Origin: Caldifarciminota bacterium
GTDB lineage: Bacteria > Hydrothermota > Hydrothermia > LBFQ01
Direction: 5' to 3'
DNA: 36,307 bases
Assembly: GCA_015490465.1 (NCBI GenBank)
Contig: WFXS01000106.1
Span: 1-36,307, forward strand
Position numbers and translations under genes: made by a program. The notes below the pieces were generated by a model. That model saw only the letters and a program-made list of their open reading frames with translations, was not told the origin of the DNA and searched no databases. This document shows, one piece after another, positions 4,758 through 36,024 of this stretch. How positions within the stretch are numbered: the first letter of the stretch is position 1; each line of letters starts with the position of its first letter.

Positions 4758-4774
4758 CGGGTATTCTATACCCG
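4758..4774 (-). promoter_or_regulatory. ribE -10 box inside a perfect 17-bp dyad
   Basis: The minus-strand -10 box TAGAAT (4763-4768) ends 7 bp before the ribE ATG. It is embedded in a perfect inverted repeat with arms CGGGTAT (4758-4764) and ATACCCG (4768-4774) around a 3-nt centre. A protein bound here would cover the -10 box, so this is a candidate repressor operator. Confidence 0.6.
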
Positions 4775-4806
4775 TACCGGATGGAGGTGGGGAGACGCTT
4801 CCGGCT

Positions 4807-4812
4807 TAGAAT
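4807..4812 (+). promoter_or_regulatory. -10 box of the EamA transporter gene
   Basis: TAGAAT preceded by CT matches the consensus seen throughout the window. It lies 5 bp before an ATT codon that is the likely start of the transporter, the same spacing as polX. It is divergent from the ribE promoter 39 bp away. Confidence 0.6.
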
Positions 4813-4817
4813 CGGCC

Positions 4818-5678
4818 ATTCCGGGAATTATCCTCTCTTTCGGTGTAGCTGCCCTTGAGAGCGTTAAGGACGCTTTCGGCAAAGTGGCAACACGGGAGAT
4901 TCCTGCGGCTCGCCTGCTCTTTCTGTACAAGGTCGTGGCCCTCGTGTTCGTCCTGCCTTTCGCCCTGTACAACTTCCGGATCGTATCCTTCTGGTCCCTG
5001 ATAACCGTCCTGATGGTTAACGCCCTCCTGAACGCTCTGGCCTTTTACCTCTACCTCAGGGCGATCTCCCTTTCTCCCCTTTCGGTGACGGTCCCTATGC
5101 TCAGTTTCTCGCCCGTCTTCCTCCTTTTCACCTCCCGCCTTATCCTCGGTCAGAAGGTGGACCTTACGGGTATATTGGGCATAGTCCTCATAACCGTCGG
5201 CTCCTATCTCCTTAACTTAAGGGACGTCCGACGGGGACCCTTCGTTCCCATCCTCGCCCTCTTGAAGGAACCGGGTCCGAGGTACATGCTGACGGTTGCC
5301 TTCATATGGAGTATAACGGCCAACCTTGACAGGATAGGTGTGGGGTTGAGCGATCCCTTCGTATGGGTCGCCCTCATGAACGTGGGCGTTATCTCCTTCG
5401 TTATGCCCGTGGCTCTCCGAAGCGGTTCGGGACCCGTAAGGTGGAGGTTCCCCATAGCGATGGGGGTGGCGGACGGTATAGGAGCCGTACTTCAGATGTT
5501 CGCCATAACCCTCGCCCCCGTCCCCCACGTCATAGCCATAAAGAGGACGAGCATCCTCCTGTCCTCTATCGTCGGATTGTTGGTCTTTCGGGAAGGGAGA
5601 TGGGCGGAGAGGTTCTCCGGCGCCCTCGCCATGGCCGTTGGCGCAGTTCTGGTTATACTTTCCATAGCGAGGGGGTAG
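4818..5678 (+). CDS. EamA/DMT-family transporter, probable ATT start
   Basis: About 286 residues with ten hydrophobic helices in two EamA repeats, the layout of drug/metabolite exporters such as RhaT and YdcZ-like proteins. Repeat 1 starts PGIILSFGVAALESVKDAFGK and contains AISLSPLSVTVPMLSFSPVF. Repeat 2 contains ALMNVGVISFVMPVAL and TLAPVPHVIAIKRTSILLSS. The only in-frame ATG upstream (4725) lies inside ribE and would add a non-membrane tail across the promoter; no ATG, GTG or TTG lies between it and the first helix. ATT at 4818-4820 sits 5 nt after TAGAAT and begins exactly at helix 1, so I place the start there. A GTG about 20 codons further would cut helix 1. The substrate is unknown. Confidence 0.8.
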   Translation: MPGIILSFGVAALESVKDAFGKVATREIPAARLLFLYKVVALVFVLPFALYNFRIVSFWSLITVLMVNALLNALAFYLYLRAISLSPLSVTVPMLSFSPVFLLFTSRLILGQKVDLTGILGIVLITVGSYLLNLRDVRRGPFVPILALLKEPGPRYMLTVAFIWSITANLDRIGVGLSDPFVWVALMNVGVISFVMPVALRSGSGPVRWRFPIAMGVADGIGAVLQMFAITLAPVPHVIAIKRTSILLSSIVGLLVFREGRWAERFSGALAMAVGAVLVILSIARG

Positions 5679-5770
5679 TACCCTCCATCGGAGAAGACCC
5701 TAAAATGAGATTCCCCGTTTACGCCAATACAATTTTCCGCTGGATCGCGGAGTATATCGCATCACCCTCC

Positions 5771-5816
5771 AGATCTTTGGAGGCCGTTACAATAAAACGG
5801 GGGGCATGCGCCCCCC
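5771..5816 (-). terminator. terminator between the convergent EamA and DUF1641 genes
   Basis: A GC-rich stem GGGGGGC/GCCCCCC with a 4-nt ATGC loop (5799-5816) is followed on the minus strand by GTTTTATTGT, a good intrinsic terminator for the DUF1641 gene. Two smaller perfect stems lie beside it: CCTCCA/TGGAGG near 5767-5784 and CCGTT/AACGG near 5784-5800. They may help to end the EamA transcript coming from the other side. Nothing else was seen in the 150-bp gap. Confidence 0.7.
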
Positions 5817-5828
5817 TCGTCTTTACGT

Positions 5829-6320
5829 TCAGGATATGCCGAGTTTCTTCCTCTTTTCGCGGATCATCTGGAGCTGCTTTTCCATCTGTGGCATCATCTT
5901 GCCCACGTCCTCGGACGTGTAGGCTATGGACTTACCGAAGGCCTTGAGGAAGAGGAATATGAAGCCCAGCGCCCTCTGGACGTCGGGATCGCCGAGCATC
6001 CTCATGAGGCCCATAAGTCCCACTTTGGGCGGGTTCTGGAAGGTCTCCGGTGTCATCTCCTCGTTCAGGGCTTTGGCGAAGTTGTTGAACATAACCGTGA
6101 TCATCGTGGGGTTAAGCATTTCAAGGACGTGGAGTAAGAAGGATATGTTCGCCCCTATGGTAAGGATACGGGGGTCCGTCATGTAGGAAAGGGAATCCGG
6201 AACCAGATCCACGATATCCTCTGCAAGGTCAATTAAACCCGCCTCGTTCGCCTTCTGGAGAAGTTCCAGAAGTTTCTCTATGCTCTCCTGCACCCTTTCA
6301 TCTTTGCTCATAGTTGCCAT
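5829..6320 (-). CDS. DUF1641 protein, partner of sulfide:quinone oxidoreductase
   Basis: This 163-residue, mostly helical protein has the DUF1641 look: an N-terminal helical segment (ESIEKLLELLQKANEAGLID), a central region with ILTIGANISFLLHVLEML, and the conserved VGLMGLMRMLGDPDVQRALGFIFLFLKAFGK block around residues 100-133. DUF1641 proteins are commonly encoded beside sulfide:quinone oxidoreductase or formate dehydrogenase genes, and here the gene directly follows sqr with an 11-nt gap. The start is set by a strong Shine-Dalgarno site (AAGGAGGTG, about 4 nt before the ATG at 6318-6320), unlike the promoter-proximal genes. A second ATG three codons in is possible. Its role is probably membrane attachment or assembly of the Sqr complex, by inference. 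Confidence 0.8.
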   Translation of the reverse strand: MATMSKDERVQESIEKLLELLQKANEAGLIDLAEDIVDLVPDSLSYMTDPRILTIGANISFLLHVLEMLNPTMITVMFNNFAKALNEEMTPETFQNPPKVGLMGLMRMLGDPDVQRALGFIFLFLKAFGKSIAYTSEDVGKMMPQMEKQLQMIREKRKKLGIS

Positions 6321-6331
6321 CTTTCACCTCC

Positions 6332-7501
6332 TTACCTTGTAAGATAGAAACCGAACCACATCGCCTCAAAGGCCATCTTCACCAGCCTTATCTCCTTACC
6401 GCGGCCGAGAACTCCGCAGTTCGGCGGACCGGAAACGTCCCTGTAAAACTGTGAGAACTCGCACATGGGCAGAACGGCGTCGTCACCGAAGTCCATGATA
6501 CACATGGCAACGGGGCTGAAGGAGTCCGCTATGTAGGCACCCTTTACGTCTGCGGCTATCTCGTTGGCGACGAACTCGGCCTGAAAGTGGGCCACCACGC
6601 CCGCCGGAGGGAGGTTAAGAGCGGCGTTAGCCCCGTCTCCGATAAGGAACACTTCGGGGAACTTCTTGGATCGGAAGGTCTCCGGGTCTACTATAGGGAG
6701 TCCCTCGGGTCCCGTAAGTTCGCTGTTAAATACCACCGGGTTGGGTTTGTTGGGAGGTACCAGAAGGAGAAGGTCGTAAGGGAGCTCGCGCCCATCCTTC
6801 GCCACGACCTTTTTGGAATCCTTATCCACGCGCACCACTTCAAAGTTACCTACGAACTCCACACCTTTGTTGTCCAGAATCTCCTGTATGACGCCCATTA
6901 TGGCGGGTCCCATGTTGGAGAGGGGTCCGGGGGTTACGTTGAAGACGGTTATGTTCGTCTTATCTCTCAGTCCCCTCGCCCTCAAGGTAAAGTCCAGCTG
7001 GCCAGCGATCTCGTAAGGTGCCGGGGGACAGCGGTAGTACATGCCCGAGACGCCTATAACTATGTTGCCGCCCTTGAAGTTCCTTATGGCCTCACGGAAG
7101 CGCAAAGCTCCCTGTAGGGACCACGTATGGTAAGCGTCCTCGTAGCCGGGAAGGGCATCGGGATCAAGCACCACGCCGAGGGAGACGATGAGGAAGTCGT
7201 AATCGTACTCTCCGTTCTTGGTCTTCACCTTCTTCTTGGAGGGGAGTATCTGGGTTATCTCGTCGTTCACGAACCTCACACCCTTCTTCTCAAGGAGCTT
7301 CAGGGGACGGCGTATGTCGTCCGGCTCCTTGAAGTTCAACCCCACCCACGGATAGCTGGGCATAAACTCGTGGTAGGGGTTCTTATCTATCAGGGTTATA
7401 TCGGCCTCTTCTCCATGCTTAAAGATCTTGGCCAGTTTGTTGGCCGCGACCAGACCGCCGCTCCCACCCCCGAGAATGAGGATCTTGGGTTTTCCTTTCA
7501 T
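6332..7501 (-). CDS. sqr: sulfide:quinone oxidoreductase
   Basis: A 389-residue flavoprotein that oxidises sulfide to polysulfide and passes electrons to membrane quinone. It has the FAD-binding start KILILGGGSGGLVAANKLAK, a second nucleotide-fold strand region, the C-terminal FAD motif FPEVFLIGDGANA, and an NLPPAGVVAHFQAE segment typical of Sqr/NDH-2 enzymes. Cys158 in YRCPPAPYE and Cys334 in VAMCIMDFG sit where the redox-active cysteines of Sqr lie; Cys347 and Cys362 are extra. The C-terminus ends in an amphipathic stretch (MAFEAMWFGFYLTR) fit for membrane binding. ATG is 9 nt after TAAAAT. Type II NADH dehydrogenase is less likely because of the paired cysteines and the DUF1641 partner. 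Confidence 0.85.
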   Translation of the reverse strand: MKGKPKILILGGGSGGLVAANKLAKIFKHGEEADITLIDKNPYHEFMPSYPWVGLNFKEPDDIRRPLKLLEKKGVRFVNDEITQILPSKKKVKTKNGEYDYDFLIVSLGVVLDPDALPGYEDAYHTWSLQGALRFREAIRNFKGGNIVIGVSGMYYRCPPAPYEIAGQLDFTLRARGLRDKTNITVFNVTPGPLSNMGPAIMGVIQEILDNKGVEFVGNFEVVRVDKDSKKVVAKDGRELPYDLLLLVPPNKPNPVVFNSELTGPEGLPIVDPETFRSKKFPEVFLIGDGANAALNLPPAGVVAHFQAEFVANEIAADVKGAYIADSFSPVAMCIMDFGDDAVLPMCEFSQFYRDVSGPPNCGVLGRGKEIRLVKMAFEAMWFGFYLTR

Positions 7502-7510
7502 GACACCGAT

Positions 7511-7516
7511 ATTTTA
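7511..7516 (-). promoter_or_regulatory. -10 box of the sqr-DUF1641 operon
   Basis: TAAAAT on the minus strand lies within TATAAAAT, 9 bp before the sqr ATG, leaving a leader of at most a few nucleotides. No -35 hexamer is recognisable; two dyads lie further upstream. Confidence 0.65.
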
Positions 7517-7548
7517 TATAGGTAGACGAGGAGACCCGCCATCTTTTT

Positions 7549-7583
7549 CTGGAAAACGGTTTTCCAGTTGCGAACGGTTTGCA
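7549..7583. promoter_or_regulatory. tandem dyads upstream of sqr, candidate operator pair
   Basis: Two adjacent inverted repeats share an AACGGTT core. The first is a perfect 19-bp dyad, CTGGAAAAC-G-GTTTTCCAG (7549-7567). The second is TGCGAAC-G-GTTTGCA (7569-7583) with one mismatch. Their centres are 18 bp apart, and the nearer one ends 32 bp upstream of the sqr -10 box. No T-run follows on the minus strand, so termination of the preceding gene is a weaker explanation than a regulator-binding site. Confidence 0.5.
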
Positions 7584-7594
7584 GATAGACGGGA

Positions 7595-8911
7595 TTAATA
7601 ACCCTTCCCTTTGAGGATCACCAACACGGTTTTGAAAATTATGATCATGTCCAGCCAGAAGGACCAGTTGACCACGTAGAGGGTGTCAAGGAGCATCCTA
7701 ACCTTGTAGCCCACCTCGTTCCTGCCGCTCACCTGCCACAGACCCGTTATGCCGGGGCGAACGCTGAGGATTATCCTGGCGTACTCCTGTATATGCTTCA
7801 ATTCGTCCGGTATGTAGGGGCGGGGTCCTACTACGCTCATGTCCCCTTTAAGGACGTTAAAGAACTGGGGCAGTTCGTCCATAGAGGTCTTCCGGAGCCA
7901 CTTCCCCACCCTCGTAACGCGGGGGTCGTTCTTGAGTTTCCAGTACGTCTCCCACTCCCTTCGGGCTTCGGGGTCGTTCTCCAGTATCTCCTTCAACCTC
8001 TCCTCGGCATCCACGTACATCGTCCGGAACTTGTAGGAGGTGAAGAGTTTCCCGTTTTTACCCACCCGTACCTGTTTGAATATTACGGGGCCCTCTGAGT
8101 CCAGCTTTATGAGGATGGCTATTATCAGGAACAGCGGAGCGAGCAGGATCAGGACGGCGAGGGAGAAGAGTATGTCAAACGTGCGCTTTATCGTTCCCCA
8201 GAGCAGGGATCTCCTCTGGGAGAAGGTTTCAAACACGGGGAGGTTCTGGGTTATGGAGAAGTGGAGTATCTGGTTCGCCAGAGGTATGCCGGAGATCTCC
8301 GGAACGTAGAAGACCTTGTCAAAGTGAAGGGAGAAATGGGCCAGTTCGTCGTAAAACTCGTGGAGGAAGGGAATACGGGTGAGGACGACGTTGCGAACCT
8401 TCCCTATCCAGTCCTTCACCTCCTCCAGCTTTACTATGGCCACGGGTCTGTAGGCGAGGTACCACTCCTTCTCAAAGAAGTTCTTCACCTTCTCGCACTC
8501 CGGCCCCTCAACGATTATTATATCCTCCTTCAGGTAACCGTTAAAGATACGTTTGGAGAGCCACCGCAGGGAAGGCACCAGCACGAAAGCGAAGGCTATG
8601 CTCAGACCTATGAAGAGGCGGGAGTAATCGGGATCCGTACGGGTCATGGCGAAGAAACCGAAGACCAGTATCAGGGTCAGAAAGAGGGCCTCCACTATCT
8701 CGCGGGTCTCCTCGTAGAATAGCCGCCTCTGAGAGTACAACCTCTTGAAGGCGAAGGCTGCTATGAGAATTACCACTATGACCAGGAACTCGCGCCACCT
8801 GTTCGGGAACTCCTGAGCGTACCTGCCGGAGAACTTTATAAAAAAAGCCGCCGAGGAGGAGAGGATTACTGCCACGAGATCCGTAAGGAACATTACTATG
8901 CTGTACCTCAT
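7595..8911 (-). CDS. polyprenyl glycosylphosphotransferase (WbaP/exopolysaccharide sugar transferase type)
   Basis: A 438-residue membrane enzyme that loads a sugar phosphate onto the undecaprenyl-phosphate carrier to start capsule, O-antigen or exopolysaccharide synthesis. The N-terminal half has four or five hydrophobic helices (MFLTDLVAVILSSSAAFF, FLVIVVILIAAFAFK and others). A CoA-binding-like middle follows. The C-terminal catalytic domain carries RTFDILFSLAVLILLAPLF, the KFRTMYVDAE motif, DELPQFFNVLKGDMSVVGPRP, and VRPGITGLWQVSGRN. Length is normal. It is alone in its transcription unit, with other glycosyltransferases elsewhere in the window. The sugar cannot be told from sequence. Confidence 0.92.
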   Translation of the reverse strand: MRYSIVMFLTDLVAVILSSSAAFFIKFSGRYAQEFPNRWREFLVIVVILIAAFAFKRLYSQRRLFYEETREIVEALFLTLILVFGFFAMTRTDPDYSRLFIGLSIAFAFVLVPSLRWLSKRIFNGYLKEDIIIVEGPECEKVKNFFEKEWYLAYRPVAIVKLEEVKDWIGKVRNVVLTRIPFLHEFYDELAHFSLHFDKVFYVPEISGIPLANQILHFSITQNLPVFETFSQRRSLLWGTIKRTFDILFSLAVLILLAPLFLIIAILIKLDSEGPVIFKQVRVGKNGKLFTSYKFRTMYVDAEERLKEILENDPEARREWETYWKLKNDPRVTRVGKWLRKTSMDELPQFFNVLKGDMSVVGPRPYIPDELKHIQEYARIILSVRPGITGLWQVSGRNEVGYKVRMLLDTLYVVNWSFWLDMIIIFKTVLVILKGKGY

Positions 8912-8919
8912 CGTAGACG

Positions 8920-8947
8920 ATCTTCCGTGTATTTTACTCCGGAAGAT
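8920..8947 (-). promoter_or_regulatory. sugar-transferase promoter: -10 box framed by a perfect inverted repeat
   Basis: TAAAAT (8931-8936, minus strand) is flanked by the arms ATCTTCCG (8920-8927) and CGGAAGAT (8940-8947), a perfect 8-bp inverted repeat with a 12-nt spacer and 20 bp between arm centres. The -10 is 19 bp from the ATG, giving one of the few short leaders here, with a weak GGAAG ribosome site that overlaps the inner arm. Confidence 0.55.
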
Positions 8948-8974
8948 ACCCCCCCGGCAACAGGGTGTTCAACA

Positions 8975-9634
8975 TCAGGTGTTTACCAGCCTGCCGTCCT
9001 TCAGATGGAGTACGACGTCGCACGTGGAGGCGAGGTCAAGGTCGTGCGTGGCCACTATCACCGTCCTCCCTTCTACGGCTATACCTGTGAGTACCTTAAA
9101 GATCGTGGCCGAATTCTTACTGTCAAGGTTCCCGGTAGGTTCGTCCGCGAATATGACTTCGGGGTCGGTTATGAGGGCGCGGGCTATGGCTATCCTCTGC
9201 TGTTCACCCCCGGAGTACTCGTAGGGCTTCTTGGAGGGATCGGTTATGCCGAGGGTTTTGAGGATCTCCCTCGCCCGCTTCGGATCCGTCTTCCCCGTCT
9301 TCAGGTACAGGCCCATGGAGACGTTGTCAAGGGCGCTGAGGTACGGGATGAGGTAGAACTGCTGGAATACGAAGGCGAAGTGATCCGCCCGGAACCTGGC
9401 CCTCCCGTCGTCCCCCATGGAGAAGAGGGCGATATCTCCGTAAATTACCCTGCCCACATCGGGGACCTCTATGCCAGCGAGCAGGTACAGGAGGGTAGTT
9501 TTGCCGCTACCGGAGGGGCCGACGACGGCGTAAGACTTCCCCGGCATAAACTCGTAGGAGAAACCATCAACGGCCACCGTCTTAACCTTCTTCCCGTAGA
9601 CTTTCTTTAAACCTTCGGCCTTTAGCACCTTCAT
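8975..9634 (-). CDS. ABC transporter ATP-binding protein (LolD/MacB type)
   Basis: A 219-residue ATPase with Walker A GPSGSGKTT near residue 39, a Q-loop in FVFQQFYLIPYLSALDNV, the ABC signature YSGGEQQRIAIARAL, Walker B VIFADEPTGNLDS, and the switch His in IVATHDLDLA. The Q-loop and SGGEQQR pattern is that of the MacB/LolD/FtsE group, which powers mechanotransmission permeases. It overlaps the permease gene by 4 nt (ATGA), so the two form one unit. The substrate is unknown; lipoprotein release, peptide export and cell-wall signalling are all possible. Confidence 0.92.
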   Translation of the reverse strand: MKVLKAEGLKKVYGKKVKTVAVDGFSYEFMPGKSYAVVGPSGSGKTTLLYLLAGIEVPDVGRVIYGDIALFSMGDDGRARFRADHFAFVFQQFYLIPYLSALDNVSMGLYLKTGKTDPKRAREILKTLGITDPSKKPYEYSGGEQQRIAIARALITDPEVIFADEPTGNLDSKNSATIFKVLTGIAVEGRTVIVATHDLDLASTCDVVLHLKDGRLVNT

Positions 9635-10749
9635 CTCCCCAGACCCTCCCTTACGTTGATCCTCATGGCGGATACGGCTGGAAGTACGCTCCCGACGAAT
9701 CCCACGACGATGGCGACGGACAGGGATAAGAGGAGGATACCCGCGGACATTTCAAGCAGATCAAGACCGAACACCCGAACCATAACCTTCCCGGACACCT
9801 CAACGAGTCCCCACCCGAGGAGGACCCCAAAAGCCCATCCGATGAGGCTTACGGCTACGGCCTGAACTACAACGAGGCGGAAGATGAACCACCTGGTCGC
9901 CCCCAACGCCCTGAGTACGGAGAACTCCCATCTCCTCTCCTGAACGGTTATGGCCATTATGGCGAAAAGGAAGACCGCCGTCACGAACAGGGCTATTGAG
10001 GAGAGGCCGAACCGTATGGCGTCCCCTATGGCGACGAAGGAGCGGGCGAGTCTCATCAGGTCCTCCGACGTCTGCACGCTGTAGTTGGGGAAACTCTTCT
10101 TCAGGAGCTTCACCACCTCTTCTGACCTCTCAGGGGGTGGGGCCACGGCGACGGCAAGTATCCTCTCCGTCCCCATATCCTCCATGAGGAGGTTGAGAGG
10201 CACTATTATGGCGTTGTCAACTATGGGAGACCCTGCCTTCGCTATTCCCACGATCACGTACTTCCCCGTCCCTATAAAGACCGTGTCCCCTATCTTCCAC
10301 CCGGCGGTCCTCGCCATGACGCTCCCCACGACGGCCTCCCTCCGGGTGCTATCCGTAAGATCTCTCCCCTTCCCTATGGAGTAATCGGCCAGAAAGTGCA
10401 TTGAGGAGGAGAAATCCTTCCCGAAGACTACCCCGACGGCCTTTGGTGGAAACCCGCCCGTGTAGGGAAGTCGTAGGACGGCGTAAACCTTCCCGACCCC
10501 GAGGGCGCGTACGGAGTCGGCGAGTTGCCTCGGAAGTATTGGCTGGGCGGAGAGGGCCTGTCCCGGTGGGAGTACGAGGATCTGGAGGTTGAATGCCCGA
10601 ACGTTCTTCTGTATGAGGCTCCTTGCTCCCTCGCCGAAGGACATGAGGTAGACGAGCGACGTGATGGAGATCGCGAGGCCGATAATTGCGAGGAGAAAGC
10701 GCAGGAGGTGGTGTTTTATAGAAAGAAAAACGACCTTCAGGAGGAACAC
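9631..10749 (-). CDS. MacB/FtsX-family ABC transporter permease
   Basis: A 372-residue permease with the MacB/FtsX plan. An N-terminal helix (FLLAIIGLAISITSLVYLMSF) is followed by a roughly 200-residue periplasmic domain (about 40-240) and three C-terminal helices: SSIALFVTAVFLFAIMAI, LVVVQAVAVSLIGWAFGVLL and ILLLSLSVAIVVGFVGSVLPA. The conserved cytoplasmic ERRWEFSVLRALGATRWFI segment couples to the ATPase. GTG is the start, 5 nt after TACAAT. No adaptor (MacA) or outer-membrane channel gene is adjacent. Confidence 0.88.
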   Translation of the reverse strand: MFLLKVVFLSIKHHLLRFLLAIIGLAISITSLVYLMSFGEGARSLIQKNVRAFNLQILVLPPGQALSAQPILPRQLADSVRALGVGKVYAVLRLPYTGGFPPKAVGVVFGKDFSSSMHFLADYSIGKGRDLTDSTRREAVVGSVMARTAGWKIGDTVFIGTGKYVIVGIAKAGSPIVDNAIIVPLNLLMEDMGTERILAVAVAPPPERSEEVVKLLKKSFPNYSVQTSEDLMRLARSFVAIGDAIRFGLSSIALFVTAVFLFAIMAITVQERRWEFSVLRALGATRWFIFRLVVVQAVAVSLIGWAFGVLLGWGLVEVSGKVMVRVFGLDLLEMSAGILLLSLSVAIVVGFVGSVLPAVSAMRINVREGLGR

Positions 10750-10754
10750 CCGGT

Positions 10755-10760
10755 ATTGTA
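10755..10760 (-). promoter_or_regulatory. -10 box of the ABC permease-ATPase operon
   Basis: TACAAT on the minus strand lies 5 bp before a GTG start codon, too close for a 5' leader. The 37-bp gap to the end of ispG holds nothing else. Confidence 0.6.
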
Positions 10761-10786
10761 CGGTGGCCCGTTTGATGCTCCTTCGT

Positions 10787-11872: not shown

Positions 11873-11879
11873 GCTCTCT

Positions 11880-11885
11880 ATTCTA
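11880..11885 (-). promoter_or_regulatory. ispG -10 box
   Basis: TAGAAT (minus strand) lies 7 bp before the ispG GTG. It faces the yidC box; only 27 bp separate the two, and a GACGG/CCGTC dyad (11891-11906) sits between them. Confidence 0.6.
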
Positions 11886-11912
11886 AAGGCGACGGTTTCA
11901 CCCGTCCAGCGG

Positions 11913-11918
11913 TATAAT
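11913..11918 (+). promoter_or_regulatory. yidC -10 box
   Basis: TATAAT lies 11 bp before the yidC ATG, giving a leader of about 4-5 nt with no Shine-Dalgarno site. Confidence 0.6.
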
Positions 11919-11929
11919 ACCCGCTTCAA

Positions 11930-13309: not shown

Positions 13310-13310
13310 C

Positions 13311-13934: not shown

Positions 13935-13944
13935 CGTTCGGGCT

Positions 13945-14244: not shown

Positions 14245-14257
14245 AGAGTACACGCCT

Positions 14258-14263
14258 TACAAT
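14258..14263 (+). promoter_or_regulatory. -10 box of the TonB-dependent receptor gene
   Basis: TACAAT in the CCTTACAAT context lies 7 bp before the ATG at 14271, which decides the start over an in-frame ATG 63 nt upstream inside the DUF2752 gene. Confidence 0.6.
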
Positions 14264-16446: not shown

Positions 16447-16477
16447 AGGCCGAATACGAACTTCACCCTCCCCACCT

Positions 16478-16483
16478 TAGAAT
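16478..16483 (+). promoter_or_regulatory. -10 box of the GT-C glycosyltransferase gene
   Basis: TAGAAT in the perfect CCTTAGAATA context, 8 bp before an in-frame TTG. This favours the TTG start over the ATG 57 nt upstream. Confidence 0.6.
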
Positions 16484-18273: not shown

Positions 18274-18284
18274 CCTTTCCGCAA

Positions 18285-18290
18285 TAGAAT
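18285..18290 (+). promoter_or_regulatory. tldD -10 box
   Basis: TAGAAT, then seven bases (CCCCCCT), then the ATG. There is no Shine-Dalgarno site in this C-rich spacer. Confidence 0.65.
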
Positions 18291-19740: not shown

Positions 19741-19753
19741 AAAGTTCTCCCTT

Positions 19754-19759
19754 AGAATA
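19754..19759 (+). promoter_or_regulatory. secG -10 box
   Basis: TAGAAT in the CCCTTAGAATA context, 7 bp before the secG ATG. Confidence 0.65.
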
Positions 19760-22048: not shown

Positions 22049-22054
22049 ATTTTA
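22049..22054 (-). promoter_or_regulatory. -10 box of the aldo/keto reductase gene
   Basis: TAAAAT in the CCTTAAAAT context on the minus strand, 6 bp before the ATG. It is divergent from polX; an 8-bp palindrome GTGGCCAC (22057-22064) lies just upstream. Confidence 0.6.
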
Positions 22055-22088
22055 AGGTGGCCACGTTCACCGAACCGTCCTGCGGGGG

Positions 22089-22094
22089 TAGAAT
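22089..22094 (+). promoter_or_regulatory. polX -10 box
   Basis: TAGAAT, 5 bp before the polX ATG; the closest spacing seen for an ATG-started gene. Confidence 0.6.
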
Positions 22095-23919: not shown

Positions 23920-23928
23920 ATGCAACCG

Positions 23929-23934
23929 TAAAAT
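23929..23934 (+). promoter_or_regulatory. gcvH-gcvPA -10 box
   Basis: TAAAAT, 7 bp before the gcvH ATG, implying a leaderless gcvH mRNA that would not contain the stem-closed element just upstream. Confidence 0.6.
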
Positions 23935-26988: not shown

Positions 26989-26997
26989 AATAAAAAA

Positions 26998-27027: not shown

Positions 27028-27036
27028 TGAGGTCCT

Positions 27037-28509: not shown

Positions 28510-28519
28510 CTTCCACCTC

Positions 28520-29047: not shown

Positions 29048-29056
29048 GACACCTCT

Positions 29057-29062
29057 ATTATA
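29057..29062 (-). promoter_or_regulatory. -10 box of the secreted-protein operon
   Basis: TATAAT on the minus strand, 9 bp before the first of two ATG codons. An AGAGGTG stretch between could act as a partial Shine-Dalgarno site. A direct repeat TGTTACA/TGTTACC lies in the -35 area (29080-29095). Confidence 0.6.
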
Positions 29063-29109
29063 CGTCGGAATTCGGGTTGATGTTACATGTTACCCAATAT
29101 AAAAAAAGG

Positions 29110-29184
29110 GGCGGCCGACGGGACTTGAACCCGCGACCCCCAGAGCCACAGTCTGGTGCTCTAACCACCTGAGCTACGGCCGCC
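29110..29184 (-). tRNA. tRNA-His (GTG anticodon)
   Basis: The minus strand folds as a cloverleaf with acceptor GCGGCCG/CGGCCGC, D-arm GCTCAGGTGGTTAGAGC, anticodon arm CCAGACTGTGGCTCTGG with GTG, and T-arm GCGGGTTCAAGTCCCGT. The encoded extra G at -1 (29184) faces C73 (29110), the identity pair of bacterial tRNA-His. CCA is not fully encoded; a T7 run follows directly and serves as terminator. Confidence 0.97.
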
Positions 29185-29197
29185 GTAAGAGGATGGT

Positions 29198-29203
29198 ATT
29201 TTA
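29198..29203 (-). promoter_or_regulatory. tRNA-His -10 box
   Basis: TAAAAT in the CCTTAAAAT context, 13 bp before the mature 5' end. This is longer than the 5-9 bp seen at protein genes and leaves a short leader for RNase P. Confidence 0.6.
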
Positions 29204-29230
29204 AGGCTGTATCACGGACGATTTCGGGGG

Positions 29231-29236
29231 TAAAAT
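29231..29236 (+). promoter_or_regulatory. tryptophanase gene -10 box
   Basis: TAAAAT, 7 bp before the ATG. There is no tnaC-like leader peptide, unlike enteric tna operons. Confidence 0.6.
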
Positions 29237-29243
29237 CCCGCCT

Positions 29244-30584: not shown

Positions 30585-31310
30585 ATGCCTAAGAGCAAAC
30601 GGGCGCTCTTTTACGTAAGCCTGTTACTCATAACGGTTTTTCTGTGGAACACGGGGATACTCTACCCCGTGAGGATGCTCGCCGTCTTCTTCCACGAGCT
30701 ATGGCACCTCCTCGCATCCCTCTCTACGGGGGGCAGGGTGAGGGAGTTCGTACTCGTACCTCAGGAGGGCGGACACGTGATTACGGAAGGGGGGAACGCC
30801 TTTCTCGTAGGGACCGCCGGATACCTCGGTTCCCTCCTGAGCGGGATCGTTATACTCGTCCTCTCCGACAGGACGAAGTTTGACCGTCTCGTGGCGGGGG
30901 TGTTGGGTCTCATCGTCGTCTTCATAGGCTTCGCCTTCGGAGATACCCTCTTCACGGTACTCTTCTGTCTCATTGTCGGCTCTCTCCTCCTCGGTATGGC
31001 TCTATTTCTGCCATCGGAGATTAACGACCTCGTCCTCCGTTTCCTCGGCCTCTCCGTGATGTTGTACGCTCCGTACGATGTGTTCACCGACGTGTTCCTG
31101 TCCAACGCTTACTTAAGCGACGCCGGGCTGCTATCGGAGAGGGTGGGGGGATCTCCCCGCCTATGGGGTACGTTGTGGATGATGATTTCGCTGATAGCAA
31201 TTTCCTCCGTTATGGTTTACCTGCTGAACAAACCCCTACCGGGCGAGGAGGTGGAAGGGGAAGGTGAAACCCATACGGAAGATTACGGGGACGATTGGAG
31301 GGACGTATAA
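30585..31310 (+). CDS. M50B-like membrane metallopeptidase homologue
   Basis: 241 residues with about six helices. HELWH near residue 38 (FFHELWHLLASLSTGGRV) is an HExxH zinc motif, and GYLGSLLSGIVILVL follows as in the M50B-like group. The usual distant Asp ligand (NxxPxxxxDG) is not obvious, so activity is uncertain. The C-terminal tail is acidic (PGEEVEGEGETHTEDYGDDW). Its ATG begins at the base after the tryptophanase TGA, so translation is probably coupled. The functional link to tryptophanase is unknown. Confidence 0.72.
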   Translation: MPKSKRALFYVSLLLITVFLWNTGILYPVRMLAVFFHELWHLLASLSTGGRVREFVLVPQEGGHVITEGGNAFLVGTAGYLGSLLSGIVILVLSDRTKFDRLVAGVLGLIVVFIGFAFGDTLFTVLFCLIVGSLLLGMALFLPSEINDLVLRFLGLSVMLYAPYDVFTDVFLSNAYLSDAGLLSERVGGSPRLWGTLWMMISLIAISSVMVYLLNKPLPGEEVEGEGETHTEDYGDDWRDV

Positions 31311-31318
31311 ACAAAAAA

Positions 31319-31392
31319 TTGCGGGGGCGGGATTTGAACCCGCGACCTCCGGGTTATGAGCCCGGCGAGCTTCCTGGCTGCTCCACCCCGCG
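31319..31392 (-). tRNA. initiator tRNA-fMet (CAT anticodon)
   Basis: The minus-strand cloverleaf starts CGCGGGG and ends CCCCGCA plus A73, giving the C1-A72 mismatch that marks bacterial initiator tRNA. The anticodon stem ends in GGG/CCC pairs (GCCGGGCTCATAACCCGGA), another initiator feature, and the T-arm is GCGGGTTCAAATCCCGC. CCA is not encoded; a T6 run (31313-31318) follows as terminator, 3 bp from the end of the convergent membrane peptidase gene. Confidence 0.97.
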
Positions 31393-31403
31393 ATCTGAGG
31401 CGT

Positions 31404-31432
31404 ATATTATAAGGGTGAAACGCAACCGCGTG
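31404..31432 (-). promoter_or_regulatory. tRNA-fMet promoter, duplicated copy of the paralogue promoter
   Basis: The -10 box TATAAT (31406-31411) lies 13 bp before the tRNA 5' end and is preceded by GTTTCACCCT. Nearly the same sequence (CACGCGG-T-CGTTTCACCCTTA-AAT pattern) lies at 31887-31915 before the next gene, part of a tandem duplication. Confidence 0.65.
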
Positions 31433-31876
31433 CTACCGCAGGCTCTTCAGAATGAGATGGGCGCTGAGGACGAGCATAAGGGCTTGAGTGATAGCGAACG
31501 GTATCAATCCCCCATCAAGTGGGAGCGTCAGAAGGTAGTATATGACCCCGACCAGGAGGACGAAGATGGCAAAACCGTCGCTGAAGGAAAAGGCAGAAGG
31601 TCTTTCATCCTCTTTCACAAGGACCTTTCGGGCAATATAAACGAGGACCGCGAGGACCGATAAGCCCGTTGAGAATACCTGTATCTGCATGGGGCGTATC
31701 AGAGGCCTTTCCATCTCCGGTACCGTTAACGACCATATGAACACCGCGATTACCCCTATGACAGATATTCCGATAATAATGCTCTTAGTAGAGATAAGTT
31801 TCCGGATCCACCCTTTCTTTTCCTCCTTTTCCTTTGTCCCCGAAGACTGAAGGTCTGCTGATTTTTCCATTTTCAT
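31433..31876 (-). CDS. four-helix membrane protein, tandem paralogue A
   Basis: 147 residues from the ATG at 31874-31876 (an ATG at 31888 abuts the -10 box, so it is less likely; one at 31870 is also possible). A highly charged N-terminus (MEKSADLQSSGTKEKEEKKGW) is followed by helices SIIIGISVIGVIAVFIWSL, IQVFSTGLSVLAVLVYIARKV, AIFVLLVGVIYYLLTLPL and IPFAITQALMLVLSAHLIL, ending KSLR. The second half matches the neighbouring protein at 31916-32497 (DGFxIFxLLVGxIYY...SAHLILKSxR). I do not recognise the family. Promoter TACAAT lies 12 bp upstream. Confidence 0.65.
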   Translation of the reverse strand: MKMEKSADLQSSGTKEKEEKKGWIRKLISTKSIIIGISVIGVIAVFIWSLTVPEMERPLIRPMQIQVFSTGLSVLAVLVYIARKVLVKEDERPSAFSFSDGFAIFVLLVGVIYYLLTLPLDGGLIPFAITQALMLVLSAHLILKSLR

Positions 31877-31888
31877 TTTACCGTGCAT

Positions 31889-31894
31889 ATTGTA
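31889..31894 (-). promoter_or_regulatory. -10 box of paralogue A
   Basis: TACAAT in the CCCTTACAAT context, within a roughly 29-bp segment nearly identical to the tRNA-fMet promoter. Confidence 0.55.
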
Positions 31895-31915
31895 AGGGTG
31901 AAACGTACCCGCGTG

Positions 31916-32497
31916 CTACCGCATACTCTTCAAGATGAGGTGGGCGCTGAAGACGAGCATAAAGGCCTGAATAATGGCGAACGAAAGAAGATCTTTATCT
32001 TTAGTGGGCGGAGGGGTAAGGGCGTAGTAAATAATGCCAACCAGCAGAAGGAAGATTATGAAGCCATCAGTGAAAGGAAGACCGGTAAGTTTGTTGTTTT
32101 TCTTTTCTTTGGAAGTCCCCTTCTCAGCACCCGAGGAGCGAACTTTAGCCGTTCCATAAAGGAAAAGGAGATAGAAAACTATAGCAAAAACTGATATTTC
32201 CAGCGATATAACCTGTACTATTGCCCCCAGTGCGTTTACGTTCACCGATTTTGCATTTTTTGCATTTTCTGTATTTAAAATTGCATTCAAAACATTTGCA
32301 TTTAGCATTACATTCAAAACCCAGTTCAGTAGTGATAATCCGGCTACTATTAATGATACTGCAATCGCTATAGCCATTTTTGTACATCCCCACTTGCTTA
32401 TATTCGGCTCTTCAGGTTGACCACCAGTCCTCCTTTTTCCCGGTGCCTGCAGCTGTTCACTTGATTTTTCGGTATTATTCGCCTTCTCCCCGGCCAC
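31916..32497 (-). CDS. membrane protein with Asn-rich repeat, tandem paralogue B
   Basis: 193 residues from GTG (32495-32497), 6 nt after TAAAAT. The N-terminus is polar and charged, followed by helix IAIAVSLIVAGLSLLNWVL and an unusual Asn/Ala-rich stretch (about 68-90, NVMLNANVLNAILNTENAKNAK). Further helices are VQVISLEISVFAIVFYLLFLY, a charged loop with SKEKKNNKL, IIFLLLVGIIYYAL and a last helix ending SAHLILKSMR. The end is homologous to paralogue A. The central DNA is strikingly AT-rich and built from AATGCAAA-like units, unlike all neighbours. The family is not recognised. Confidence 0.65.
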   Translation of the reverse strand: MAGEKANNTEKSSEQLQAPGKRRTGGQPEEPNISKWGCTKMAIAIAVSLIVAGLSLLNWVLNVMLNANVLNAILNTENAKNAKSVNVNALGAIVQVISLEISVFAIVFYLLFLYGTAKVRSSGAEKGTSKEKKNNKLTGLPFTDGFIIFLLLVGIIYYALTPPPTKDKDLLSFAIIQAFMLVFSAHLILKSMR

Positions 32498-32503
32498 GAG
32501 GTT

Positions 32504-32534
32504 ATTTTAAGGGAGAGTTGAAGGATATTTCAAC
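32504..32534 (-). promoter_or_regulatory. paralogue B promoter with upstream dyad
   Basis: TAAAAT (32504-32509, context CCTTAAAAT) is 6 bp before the GTG. A perfect dyad, GTTGAA-6 nt-TTCAAC (32517-32534), lies 7 bp upstream of the box, where a -35 element would be. It starts right at the end of the acyltransferase gene, so it could also be a weak hairpin for that transcript. Confidence 0.5.
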
Positions 32535-33650
32535 CTACCACGGATTTAATGCAAATACCATAGCAAAGAACTTCCAGACGCTCCGGGATAGTTTCTGACC
32601 GTACCGATTCCTCAACATCTCCCACGTGTAAACGAAGGTGGCAGTTACGAGGAATATCATCCCTCCCACAATTAGAGAGTCCACCCATCCCCTGTGACCG
32701 TAAAAGCGTGTCAGAGGAGCGGTAAAGGGCGAGCCGTAAACTATAGCGTTGTGGAATGCGTAGGACATGAGGGAGTTCCTTCCGAGCATGGCCAGAAACT
32801 CTGAGTGAAACCCGAAGTTTTCGGCCGCTATGAGGGCGAACAGGATGAGCATAAGGGTTCCCACCCGTACCAGAATGTTGTACACGTGGCCCTCAGAAGG
32901 GGGGTAGGGTACGAAAACGGTAAGGGCAACTGCTAAGGACACTGCGGCCATCAGGCCGAAGGTTATACGCCTGTCCACGAAGTAGGAGCTTCCAAGAGTT
33001 GAACCGAAGAACATGTACCCCCAGTAGGGAAATACGGGGAAAAGGGAACCCTCCCGCGTGAAGTACGGTGCTATGAACATGGGCAGGCTCTTCCCCCACT
33101 CCCACACCCACGGGGTAGAGAGCCAGAACAACGCCGTCAGGAAGAGGAATATCCCCATCCTCACCACGGGGGATTTAACGAGCCTCAGGACGGAGGTTAT
33201 TACCAGTACTCCGGAACCTATGCTTATAAGTATCTCCACCCTTTTGAAGATGTGGAGACCGTTCACGAACCATTCGGGAGGAGACCCACCCTTTATAAGC
33301 GGAAGGTTCAGGGTAATACCGAGAGAGGAGGTCACGAACAGGATAGAGAAAAGGACGAGAAGCATAAGGGATTTTGTAGGTAGCTGGGTGGCATAACCAA
33401 AGGCCATCAGTTCTATGCCCCTTCTCAACCTTCGCCAGAATTTGGTGTCGTTGTAGGTGTATACGGCCAGAAATCCGGAGGAGACGAGGAAAGCGGGAGC
33501 CACGAGACCGTTAAAGAAAGCGACGGAGTGGTACAGCGGAGTAGACTTTATAGACGGGATTATCAAACCGTCAAGGGTGTGGGTCGGGATCATCCATATT
33601 ACGAAGAGGCCTTTCAGATAATCAAAAAACAACAACCTTTTTTTACTCAT
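32535..33650 (-). CDS. multi-pass membrane acyltransferase-like protein (DUF1624/HGSNAT or OpgC type)
   Basis: 371 residues from the ATG at 33648-33650, about ten helices. The first segment (KRLLFFDYLKGLFVIWMIPTHTLDG) matches the start of the acyltransferase families that use an N-terminal R/KxxxxDxxKG motif and a His in helix 1 (His30 area). AAENFGFHSEFLAMLGRNSLMSYAFHN is the typical late motif (LGRxSLxxYxxH). Such proteins transfer acetyl or succinyl groups to periplasmic glycans. An upstream GTG frame extends into a terminator hairpin and is rejected. No good promoter or Shine-Dalgarno site is visible; the gene probably receives read-through from rpe across the hairpin. Confidence 0.78.
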   Translation of the reverse strand: MSKKRLLFFDYLKGLFVIWMIPTHTLDGLIIPSIKSTPLYHSVAFFNGLVAPAFLVSSGFLAVYTYNDTKFWRRLRRGIELMAFGYATQLPTKSLMLLVLFSILFVTSSLGITLNLPLIKGGSPPEWFVNGLHIFKRVEILISIGSGVLVITSVLRLVKSPVVRMGIFLFLTALFWLSTPWVWEWGKSLPMFIAPYFTREGSLFPVFPYWGYMFFGSTLGSSYFVDRRITFGLMAAVSLAVALTVFVPYPPSEGHVYNILVRVGTLMLILFALIAAENFGFHSEFLAMLGRNSLMSYAFHNAIVYGSPFTAPLTRFYGHRGWVDSLIVGGMIFLVTATFVYTWEMLRNRYGQKLSRSVWKFFAMVFALNPW

Positions 33651-33661
33651 CACCAAAACAC

Positions 33662-33690
33662 TCCCCACCCCGTTATCTCAGGGGTGGGGA
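33662..33690 (-). terminator. terminator/attenuator hairpin between the 36-residue gene and the acyltransferase
   Basis: Perfect 10-bp stem TCCCCACCCC/GGGGTGGGGA with a 9-nt loop, followed on the minus strand by GTGTTTTGG. It lies 12 bp after the small-gene stop and 11 bp before the acyltransferase ATG, so it could end the mini-gene transcript or attenuate the next gene. Confidence 0.65.
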
Positions 33691-33702
33691 CTCTTCACCT
33701 CT

Positions 33703-33813
33703 TCAGTAGGTTATGAGAATGCTTCCCCCACGGGAAGACGTCCTGCCAAGTACCCTCGGCTTTTGGTAAGGCTTGCGCTGGGAAATGCGTGGAACGCGCC
33801 TTTCCTTGTTCAT
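33703..33813 (-). CDS. 36-residue basic peptide gene
   Basis: The frame MNKERRVPRISQRKPYQKPR followed by VLGRTSSRGGSILITY has ten Lys/Arg and one acidic residue, no helix-forming membrane segment and no Cys. It has its own TATAAT (33836-33841), a strong Shine-Dalgarno site (AAAGGAGGT, 5 nt before ATG), and a hairpin after the stop, so it forms a complete mini transcription unit just downstream of rpe. In RNA reading through from rpe, a 10-bp stem would cover the Shine-Dalgarno site. Possible roles are a small RNA- or ribosome-binding protein or a regulated toxic or modified peptide; no family is recognised. A chance ORF is possible but unlikely given the signals around it. Confidence 0.6.
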   Translation of the reverse strand: MNKERRVPRISQRKPYQKPRVLGRTSSRGGSILITY

Positions 33814-33820
33814 GTTCTAC

Positions 33821-33847
33821 CTCCTTTATACGGGTATTATAAAGGAG
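33821..33847 (-). promoter_or_regulatory. 27-bp dyad holding -10 box and sequestered Shine-Dalgarno site of the 36-residue gene
   Basis: Arms CTCCTTTATA and TATAAAGGAG are perfectly complementary over 10 bp with a 7-nt loop. On the minus strand the first arm includes the rpe stop codon and most of TATAAT; the second arm is the Shine-Dalgarno region. Transcription from this TATAAT should begin near 33829-33831, after the first arm, leaving the site free. Confidence 0.65.
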
Positions 33848-34472
33848 AACCGGGGTCCGTTCCAGCGGGTTTGCGACCTCTGAAAAAGGCAGCTCCCATG
33901 ACCACCTCATCGGCAGGCCCGATTTTGGATAAATTTTCCCACTTAACCCCTCCGTCAACCGTTATGGTGAACCTTAGATCCCTCTCCCTCCTCATTCTGT
34001 CCAGCTCGGAAACCTTGGGGAGTACCCACTCTAACATCCTCTGACCGGCAAAGCCGGGGTAAACGGTCATAACGAGGACCTGATCCACCTTATCTAACAA
34101 CTTCAGGAGTCGGGAAACAGGCGTATCGGGTGAAATCGCGATCCCTGCCTTTAGACCTGCCTCGCGTACCCTGCGGAGGGTGGAGGATAAGAAAGCCGAG
34201 CTCTCGTAATGAACCGTTATCCTGAAGACTCCGGGGAGGACAAAGCGGTGGATGTAGCGGTCGGGATGGGTGAGCATTAAGTGTACGTCCAGAGGTTTTC
34301 CCGTCCTCTCGTGTATGGCTCTGGCCAGGTCTGGCCCAAGGGTGAGGTTGGGGACGAAGTGGCCGTCCATCACGTCCACGTGGATGAAATCCCCCTCCTT
34401 CGCCCTCTCCAGCTCCTCGTAGCACCTCGCCCAGTTGGCGGCTATTACGGAAGGTCCTACGCGGTACCTCAT
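33837..34472 (-). CDS. rpe: ribulose-phosphate 3-epimerase
   Basis: 211 residues, a TIM-barrel enzyme interconverting ribulose-5-phosphate and xylulose-5-phosphate. It has VGPSVIAANWARCYEELERA, the metal-binding HVDVMDGHFVPNLTLGPDLARAI, DVHLMLTHPDRYI, VLVMTVYPGFAGQRML (the usual MSVNPGFGGQ reads MTVYPGFAGQ) and the phosphate-binding TVDGGVKWEN and MGAAFF. All metal ligands (His, Asp, His, Asp) are in place. The C-terminus (RGRKPAGTDPGSPL) is slightly shorter than usual. Its ATG overlaps the carboxylase stop by 4 nt, so it lies in that operon. Confidence 0.93.
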   Translation of the reverse strand: MRYRVGPSVIAANWARCYEELERAKEGDFIHVDVMDGHFVPNLTLGPDLARAIHERTGKPLDVHLMLTHPDRYIHRFVLPGVFRITVHYESSAFLSSTLRRVREAGLKAGIAISPDTPVSRLLKLLDKVDQVLVMTVYPGFAGQRMLEWVLPKVSELDRMRRERDLRFTITVDGGVKWENLSKIGPADEVVMGAAFFRGRKPAGTDPGSPL

Positions 34473-36010
34473 AACGGTATGTTGCTGTGCTTCTTGGGCG
34501 GGAGGGTCTGACGCTTGTTCCTGAGGAGGCGGAGTCCCTTTATCAAGACCTGACGGGTCTTTGACGGTTCAATTACATCGTCTATGTATCCGAGGGAGGC
34601 GGCGTAATACGGGTTGGCGAACTTCTCTCTGTACTCCCTCGTCAGTCGGTCTATCAGCTCCTGCGGATTCTCGGCCTCTGCTATCTCCTTCTTGTAGAGT
34701 ATCTTAACTGCTCCCTCCGGCCCCATGACGGCGAACTCGGCCGTTGGCCACGCGTAGTTGAGGTCCGCCCTTACCTGCTTGGACCCAAGGACGCAGTAGG
34801 CCCCACCGTAGGACTTACGCACCACAACGGTTATCTTTGGCACGGTGGCCTCCGCGTAGGCGAATAGGAGCTTCGCCCCGTGCCTTATTATCCCACCATG
34901 TTCCTGCTCAACTCCGGGCATGAAGCCGGGGATGTCCTCAAAGGTTATTATGGGGATGTTGAAGGCGTCGCAGAACCGCACGAAACGGGCCGCCTTCACC
35001 GAGGCGTTTATGTCTAACGCACCGGCCAGATGGAGGGGTTGCTGGGCGACTATCCCGACGGGAAAACCGCCGAGACGGGCGAAACCCACTACGATGTTGG
35101 GAGCGAAGTTCTCGTGTACCTCAAAGAACTCCCCGTTGTCCACTATCCTGCGTATAACGTCCTTCATATCGTAACCCTGATAGGGGTCCGCCGGTACTAT
35201 GTAGTTGAGGTCGGGGTCCTCCCGGTCTTCGGGGTCATCCGTGGGTACGTAGGGCGGATCTTCGGCGTTGTTGGAGGGGAGGTAGGAGAGGAGCTTCCTT
35301 ATCCCCTCAAAAACCTCGGCCTCGCTGTCGTACACGAAGTGGGCCACCCCCGACTTCTCGGCGTGGACGTCGGCACCTCCCAGCTCTTCGGGTGTAACGT
35401 CTTCATGAGTTACCGCTTTTACGACCTCAGGTCCGGTTATGAACATGTAGCTCGGCCCACGTCTCATGAAAATGAAGTCGGTTATGGCCGGGCTGTAAAC
35501 GGCCCCACCAGCCGATGGACCAAGTATGGCCGAGATCTGGGGTATCACGCCGGAGGCGAGGACGTTACGCAGGAATATCTCGGCGTATCCGCCGAGGGAG
35601 GCCACACCGTCCTGTATCCGGGCCCCTCCGGAGTCGTTCAGGCCGATTACGGGTACCCCTACCCGCATAGCCGTGTCCATAACCTGCACTATCTTCTTAG
35701 CGTTGCTCTCGGATATGGTGCCACCGATTACGGTGAAGTCGTGGGCAAAGATGCCGACCGGTCTCCCGTCTATGGTGCCAAAGCCGGCGACGACGCCGTC
35801 GCCGTAGTACTTCTGCTTTACATCGGGGTTGCGGTGGGTGACGAATACCCCTATCTCCATAAAGGAACCTTCGTCCAGAAGGTAGTCTATCCTTTCTCTT
35901 GCCGTCAACTTGCCCTTCTCGTGCTGGCGCTTTATCCTCTCCGGTCCTCCTCCCTCGTAGGCTTTTTTCTTCATCTCCTTGAGCTGTCTCAGTTTCTCCT
36001 CTATGCTCAT
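34469..36010 (-). CDS. acyl-CoA carboxylase, carboxyltransferase (beta) subunit
   Basis: 513 residues from the ATG at 36008-36010, normal for propionyl-/methylmalonyl-CoA carboxylase beta chains. The N-terminus has LKEMKKKAYEGGGPERIKRQHEKGKLTARERIDYLLDEGSF. The two crotonase-like halves carry FGTIDGRPVGIFAHDFTVIGGTISE, IGLNDSGGARIQDGVASLGGYAEIF, SAGGAVYSPAITDFIFM, and then PGFMPGVEQEHGGIIRHGAKLLFAYAEATVPKITVVVRKSYGGAYCVLGSK. It carboxylates propionyl-CoA or acetyl-CoA using biotin on a partner not seen here; alternatively it is the carboxyltransferase of a sodium-pumping decarboxylase. The open frame extends 30 codons upstream across the -10 box, so the shorter start is used. Confidence 0.9.
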   Translation of the reverse strand: MSIEEKLRQLKEMKKKAYEGGGPERIKRQHEKGKLTARERIDYLLDEGSFMEIGVFVTHRNPDVKQKYYGDGVVAGFGTIDGRPVGIFAHDFTVIGGTISESNAKKIVQVMDTAMRVGVPVIGLNDSGGARIQDGVASLGGYAEIFLRNVLASGVIPQISAILGPSAGGAVYSPAITDFIFMRRGPSYMFITGPEVVKAVTHEDVTPEELGGADVHAEKSGVAHFVYDSEAEVFEGIRKLLSYLPSNNAEDPPYVPTDDPEDREDPDLNYIVPADPYQGYDMKDVIRRIVDNGEFFEVHENFAPNIVVGFARLGGFPVGIVAQQPLHLAGALDINASVKAARFVRFCDAFNIPIITFEDIPGFMPGVEQEHGGIIRHGAKLLFAYAEATVPKITVVVRKSYGGAYCVLGSKQVRADLNYAWPTAEFAVMGPEGAVKILYKKEIAEAENPQELIDRLTREYREKFANPYYAASLGYIDDVIEPSKTRQVLIKGLRLLRNKRQTLPPKKHSNIPL

Positions 36011-36018
36011 AGGTGGGA

Positions 36019-36024
36019 AATTTA
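36019..36024 (-). promoter_or_regulatory. -10 box of the carboxylase-rpe operon
   Basis: TAAATT in the CCTTAAATT context on the minus strand, 8 bp before the ATG. It differs by one base from the common TANAAT form. Confidence 0.5.

Follow-up and report, generated by a model that had tools for sequence, protein, structure and literature searches.

Leaderless genes, in which a -10 box stands right beside the start codon, are already known from Deinococcus-Thermus and the Actinobacteria. In mycobacteria this box takes the form TANNNT and is used together with RbpA and CarD. In the open complex of the Taq enzyme, residues R35 and Y34 of the beta' zipper are positioned for a contact with the phosphate at -17 (PMC4593229), and the zipper has been credited with a recognition of positions -17/-18 that is able to replace the -35 contact (PMC5101437). 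Here, we analyze a stretch of 36,307 nucleotides, hereafter the window (contig WFXS01000106.1, positions 1 to 36,307, of the Caldifarciminota bacterium assembly GCA_015490465.1), in which a TANAAT box recurs a few nucleotides ahead of start codons, and we follow this box through the rest of the genome and its relatives. The assembly comprises 2.05 Mb in 126 contigs and is 91.7% complete. Its lineage is candidate division WOR-3; its RpoD is up to 100% identical to proteins of that division, followed by WOR-3 and two Thermotogota-labelled metagenome-assembled genomes at 94-95%.

The observations are best explained, and very probably correctly so, by one dominant housekeeping core promoter, CNNCNKTANAAT, which would function with no -35 element and would be so placed that the transcript starts on the start codon or no more than a few nucleotides from it. 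As a result of this placement most genes that are first in their transcription unit would be leaderless, and the downstream genes of operons would use Shine-Dalgarno (SD) sites or stop-start overlaps. The statistics come from stretches totalling 603 kb of the 2.05 Mb, in which a simple purpose-made gene caller assigned the start codons of 591 genes, and from pattern counts over the whole genome. Positions are numbered with TANAAT set at -12 to -7.

The TANAAT box at first genes

TANAAT lies 5-12 nt (with a peak at 7-8) ahead of about 40% of the start codons and of about 70% of the transcription-unit-first genes, and 241 boxes stand at this distance from an in-frame start. Within the window, 11 of the 34 called starts have the box at 5-9 nt, and the counts for eight equally wide control windows, placed farther upstream, were 1, 0, 0, 0, 0, 0, 0 and 0. 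Over 360 kb of the same genome it stands at 5-11 nt from 103 of 349 called starts, the counts at 15-21 nt and at 25-31 nt being 5 each, and the pattern TANAATN{5,9}ATG is matched 703 times genome-wide versus 200 times for the reversed-pattern control. The spacing is sharply peaked at 6-10 nt: for ATGs of open frames the histogram reads 13, 26, 34, 23 and 12 at distances of 6 to 10 nt and falls to about 2 per position farther off. An earlier model's reading of the window without database searches (the sequence-only reading) had proposed a leaderless architecture without a -35 box and had named a genome scan against controls as its check; the peak at short distance, with control windows near zero, supports a predicted leaderless or near-leaderless architecture throughout the genome.

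A de novo motif search in which no motif was assumed recovered TANAAT 6-9 nt ahead of first genes and AGGAGGT 5-6 nt ahead of operon-internal ones. First genes divide into 198 with a box, 12 with an SD site and 69 with neither; for internal genes the figures are 35, 98 and 131. Thus the box occurs above chance at a fixed short distance where SD sites are scarce, and these are present at the internal genes, as the sequence-only reading had also held. The 3' end of the 16S rRNA retains the anti-SD ACCTCCTTT, consistent with SD use inside operons. As a separate observation, four 16S genes of the genome's own family end in GGAACACCTCCTTT, versus GGATCACCTCC in the other phylum members examined, a change that adjoins the anti-SD; one genome of the family has the usual form, for which contamination is possible.

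In 38 of 229 cases the box is 10-14 nt from the start, and leaders of a few nucleotides would result. A purine preference, taken as a proxy for +1, gave no clear signal at spacings of at least 10 nt.

Were the boxes genuine promoters and translation in fact begun farther downstream, the transcripts would have ordinary leaders; the start codons were, after all, assigned computationally. However, a comparison with a relative of the same genus reveals codon-position periodicity from codon 2 onward (identities of 0.71, 0.84 and 0.46 at the first, second and third positions of codons 2-5), which argues that the predicted start codons are real; they are also conserved between the orthologues, and the near absence of SD sites at first genes is equally at odds with downstream starts. 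We regard such misplacement as highly improbable. The predicted leaderless architecture is confirmed by computation; its kind is already known, and the lineage is apparently new, as the literature that we searched held no paper joining leaderless genes with WOR-3.

A longer element with C at -18

The TANAAT box is not complete in itself: it forms the right-hand half of CNNCNKTANAAT, a longer element that has C at both -18 and -15, G or T at -13 and a T-rich segment from -21 to -19. In the aligned leaderless boxes (241 in the largest set), C occupies -18 in 92-93%; position -15 is C in 69% and G in 22% (C or G in 91%), -14 is C in 54% and -13 is G or T in 88%. The motif given by the sequence-only reading, (C/T)TTANAAT, was therefore right as to the box and incomplete upstream of it. 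Its statement that no consistent -35 hexamer is present holds: none was found in sets of 104, 135 and 241 aligned boxes or through orthologue conservation, and chi-square, which is 658 at -18, nowhere exceeds 14 between -57 and -22. Against the lack of a -35 box stands an upstream element that the sequence-only reading had not noticed, in which C-18 is the strongest position apart from TANAAT itself.

The same-genus comparison supplied 33 box-led starts whose start codon lies at the same place in both genomes. The box is kept at 31 of them, and C-18 in 30 of these 31. For the 21 pairs with the same spacing, a choice that forces identity of the box and not of C-18, identity is 1.0 at -18 (21/21), 0.86 at -15, 0.19 at -17 and 0.38 at -19, and from -36 to -21 it is an unconserved 0.19-0.48.

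These figures bear on a view in which the promoters are ordinary leaderless TANNNT promoters of the Deinococcus or actinobacterial style, C-18 and C-15 being a side effect of base composition. Genes with TANNNT 6-7 nt from the start are indeed common in Deinococcus-Thermus (PMC12340547) and leaderless genes are widespread in bacteria (PMC3160421), and to that extent the view coincides with the explanation that we prefer. Its compositional part is already refuted: C-18 reaches 93% where upstream C is about 25%, with -17 and -19 near background; where TANAAT occurs within genes, no more than 18% (antisense) or 26% (sense) of the copies have C-18; the orthologues hold C-18 amid randomised neighbours; C-18 persists at 95% in the second genus of the family, whose genome has 41% GC; and the Thermus thermophilus plasmid pTT27 (150 kb, 18 boxes) has TANNNT at 6-7 nt with C at -18 in 39%, the same as in the flanks. 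As a whole we consider this view very unlikely.

The full 12-mer CNNCNKTANAAT also precedes all 13 tRNA genes that have an upstream region of their own (that is, are not obviously co-transcribed), lying 9-14 nt from the tRNA end in eleven cases, with distances of 24 and 42 nt for the other two; a fourteenth tRNA closely follows another. Upstream of the 16S gene stands CACCCTTATAAT. The presence of the element at tRNA and 16S genes marks it as a housekeeping promoter rather than a feature of translation starts, and the action of the box as a promoter element is supported. The sequence-only reading had correctly noted the same box at two tRNA genes of the window, although at 13 nt instead of the actual 14 and 12 nt.

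Another possibility is that C-18 and C-15 are the footprint of an abundant DNA-binding activator, which would occupy nearly every promoter immediately ahead of its -10 box. There are activators that touch the spacer, a promoter devoid of a -35 element needs help, and the finding of no stand-alone CarD (matches were only to long proteins of Mfd/UvrB size) makes another factor conceivable. Yet the register fixed to the box, with no shift of one base either way, the presence at tRNA and rRNA genes and the 93% occupancy are properties of a core promoter, and the bases lie where the beta' zipper and sigma region 3.0 contact DNA. An activator footprint is in our judgment improbable.

Phylogenetic spread and the RNA polymerase

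In the AT-rich genomes of the phylum the excess ratios of TANAATN{5,9}ATG are unreliable, and motif alignment was used instead. We compare the genome's own family (f1; 8 genomes in 2 genera) with its sister family of the same order (f2) and with the rest of the phylum. CNNCNKTANAAT is found 696 times in the genome itself versus 65 for the control, and is enriched 3-14 fold in all eight f1 genomes and about 1 fold in f2. Nearly all other genomes lie between 0.6 and about 2 fold, the few higher values resting on low counts (for example 39 versus 9 and 47 versus 17 in two genomes), so that among 147 genomes from 37 families of the phylum strong enrichment is confined to f1. The C-18/C-15 element is thus strongly supported as family-specific. 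The sister family is leaderless too, with CTTTAAAATT, in which C-15 is present and C-18 absent; in two further families, f4 and f10, the de novo motif of first genes is the SD sequence. In the papers searched we found no account of a near-invariant single base at -18 that acts as a standard element of the core promoter.

RNA polymerase with its main sigma, RpoD, would read the element, and +1 would fall 7-9 nt after the box. The sequence-only reading had pointed to the sigma factor as a place to look; compared with f2 and outgroups, regions 2.4, 3.0 and 4.2 of RpoD proved canonical at the residues that read the -10, extended -10 and -35 sequences, the sole exception being the equivalent of E. 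coli Y425, where Phe replaces Tyr. A second, divergent sigma of 283 residues, present throughout the phylum and encoded between pth and downstream genes, might be the reader instead. In the genus of the genome analyzed here it has an unusual region 2.4/3.0 (YADKWIKEAI...KPLSGMPHISKKD versus YAIWWVRQAI...), whereas RpoD is canonical. But the genes that have the element include those for tRNA, rRNA and housekeeping functions, which RpoD normally transcribes; between the two f1 genera the second sigma has kept only about 45% identity, yet both use the same element; and its -10-reading residues are degraded, not conserved (the equivalents of W433 and Q437 are lost from region 2.4). A role for this protein at the element is quite unlikely.

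The beta' subunit differs more conspicuously. Just ahead of the zipper motif GEV..ETINY it carries a 13-residue insertion (e.g. EAERKGRERGEYG) in each of the 11 members of the order that were compared, and it is absent from 19 further members of the class; one order member carries it with a Lys. A degenerate DNA pattern for the insertion was matched in 10 genomes phylum-wide, all of the order. A shorter insertion occupies this site in the gamma subunits of cyanobacteria, and an insertion there is accordingly not unique to this WOR-3 order. At zipper residue 35 (Thermus numbering) each of the eight f1 genomes has Lys (NYKT), and the 98 other genomes in which the site could be located all have Arg (NYRT). 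The RpoC proteins of f1 read LNTPVVHPWFYKMPPYIIPTLLG, against LAVPVAHIWFYKIPPSIIGTLLD elsewhere in the class.

The altered zipper region (the insertion plus R35K) may read or position C-18 and so offset the absent -35 contact, a suggestion to which we give not quite an even chance. The broader proposal, that in f1 the -35 element gave way to an obligate, base-specific contact at -18 (together with C-15) through a remodelled polymerase core, the beta' zipper with its insertion and R35K, and that this was combined with near-universal leaderless initiation, is tentative and rather doubtful. If true, f1 would have the first genome-wide promoter code whose upstream recognition is made by core polymerase and not by sigma region 4.

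Several points weigh against the explanation preferred here. The base-by-base reading covered about 30% of the genome, the starts depend on a simple gene caller with transcript 5' ends that are predicted ones, and the 69 first genes mentioned above have neither box nor SD. In f1 the beta' subunit departs from otherwise conserved columns at about 42 family-specific positions, and R35K may be an incidental one among them; contact with a phosphate does not on its own account for base specificity; and the insertion is also present in f2, which is without C-18. Because it rests on a single branch, and thus on one evolutionary event, the zipper link is put forward as a hypothesis. The sharp boundary of the element (one family, with a leaderless sister lacking C-18) and the beta' changes make the function of a promoter without -35 testable, and they raise the question of whether core polymerase can carry sequence recognition. 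A scan for CNNCNKTANAAT with a spacing of 5-12 nt would also set right how start codons and operons are annotated in the genomes of these uncultured bacteria.

Elements of the window and comparison with known systems

The elements of the window are collected in Table 1. The boxes and spacings listed by the sequence-only reading for ribE, the permease, ispG, the TonB receptor, the GT-C-like gene, tldD, the aldo/keto reductase, polX, gcvH, the tnaA-like gene and paralogue B are all present as described, and among the protein-coding genes only its 7 nt for secG needed correction, to 8.

Table 1. Promoter elements in the window; distances run from the box to the start codon or tRNA 5' end.
Feature	Position	Strand	Context
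Promoter element (C-18, G-15, box TAGAAT 4763-4768)	4763..4774	-	7 nt ahead of ATG 4755, ribE (lumazine-binding domains, Pfam PF00677)
Promoter element (C-18, A-15, box TAAAAT 7511-7516)	7511..7522	-	9 nt ahead of ATG 7501
Full element CCACCGTACAAT	10755..10766	-	5 nt ahead of GTG 10749, MacB/FtsX-type permease
Full element CGCCTTTAGAAT	11880..11891	-	7 nt ahead of GTG 11872, ispG (GcpE)
Full element CAGCGGTATAAT	11907..11918	+	11 nt ahead of ATG 11930
Element with A for C at -18, box TACAAT	14252..14263	+	7 nt ahead of ATG 14271, TonB-dependent receptor
Full element CCACCTTAGAAT	16472..16483	+	8 nt ahead of TTG 16492, GT-C gene of the sequence-only reading; Pfam: no match
Element CCGCAATAGAAT (C-18, C-15, A at -13)	18279..18290	+	7 nt ahead of ATG 18298, tldD
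Full element CTCCCTTAGAAT	19747..19758	+	8 nt ahead of ATG 19767, secG
Full element CCACCTTAAAAT	22049..22060	-	6 nt ahead of ATG 22042, aldo/keto reductase
Element (C-18, G-15, box TAGAAT)	22083..22094	+	5 nt ahead of ATG 22100, polX
Full element CAACCGTAAAAT	23923..23934	+	7 nt ahead of ATG 23942, gcvH of the sequence-only reading
Element (C-18, A-15, box TATAAT 29057-29062)	29057..29068	-	9 nt ahead of ATG 29047 or 12 nt ahead of ATG 29044
tRNA-His promoter, full element CAGCCTTAAAAT	29198..29209	-	box 14 nt from tRNA 5' end
Element (C-18, G-15, box TAAAAT)	29225..29236	+	7 nt ahead of ATG 29244, beta-eliminating lyase (tnaA-like)
tRNA-Met promoter, full element CACCCTTATAAT	31406..31417	-	box 12 nt from tRNA 5' end
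Full element CACCCTTACAAT, paralogue A	31889..31900	-	ATG 31876 at 12 nt; box-touching ATG too close for transcription
Full element CTCCCTTAAAAT, paralogue B	32504..32515	-	6 nt ahead of GTG 32497
Full element CACCCGTATAAT	780..791	-	9 nt ahead of in-frame ATG 771 within open frame 186-1376
Full element CTCCTTTATAAT	33836..33847	-	ahead of short SD-led reading frame (ATG near 33812)

Three of these loci merit comment. The open frame 186-1376 appears to be a fusion, with RNase III-like and DJ-1/PfpI-like portions in that order, and spans the in-frame promoter, so the second portion may also be made alone from ATG 771. At about 33700-33847 (minus strand) the full element is followed by a leader of about 24 nt with AAGGAGGT and by a short basic reading frame (MNKERRVPRISQRKPYQK...); this is a predicted leadered, SD-led exception that uses the same promoter. 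Finally, the two tandem membrane-protein paralogues at 31433-32515 (minus strand) and the tRNA-Met gene have nearly identical upstream sequence (TTTCACCCTTA[CT]AAT), which suggests a duplication that included the promoter.

In comparison with the systems already described, the leaderless genes of Deinococcus-Thermus (PMC12340547; PMC3160421) are alike in having a sigma-A-type -10 box a few nucleotides from the start with little or no leader, in using SD sites for the remaining genes and in a leaderless frequency of at least 30%. They differ in that their box is TANNNT at 6-7 nt, whereas here it is TANAAT at 6-10 nt (peak 7-8), and in that the obligate C-18 and C-15 of the present element are absent from the Thermus plasmid sample. 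Their type, with free middle bases, a spacing of 6-7 and no upstream element, does not describe the promoters found here. The leaderless transcriptome of Mycobacterium tuberculosis (PMC3898074) shares the large proportion of leaderless mRNAs and the adjacent -10 box; the present genome differs in having C-18/C-15 and in yielding no stand-alone CarD. The extended -10 promoter (T-15 G-14 n TATAAT) is similar in that sequence just upstream of the -10 box can replace the -35 element, but TG is absent here (-15 is C or G and -14 mostly C) and the element is not of that class; the sigma residues that read TG (R441, H455 and E458 in E. coli numbering) are conserved despite this absence. There is also a likeness to the Z-element, or beta' zipper, promoters of Yuzenkova et al. 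2011, as these are represented in PMC5101437 and PMC4593229: the same -17/-18 position is involved, and the zipper contact can substitute for that at -35. The tie of C-18 (93%, and 21/21 between orthologues) to the zipper would lie in its co-occurrence with the insertion and R35K. In those accounts the Z-element is described as contributory on model promoters; here, the -18 base is near-invariant genome-wide and is accompanied by altered zipper residues.

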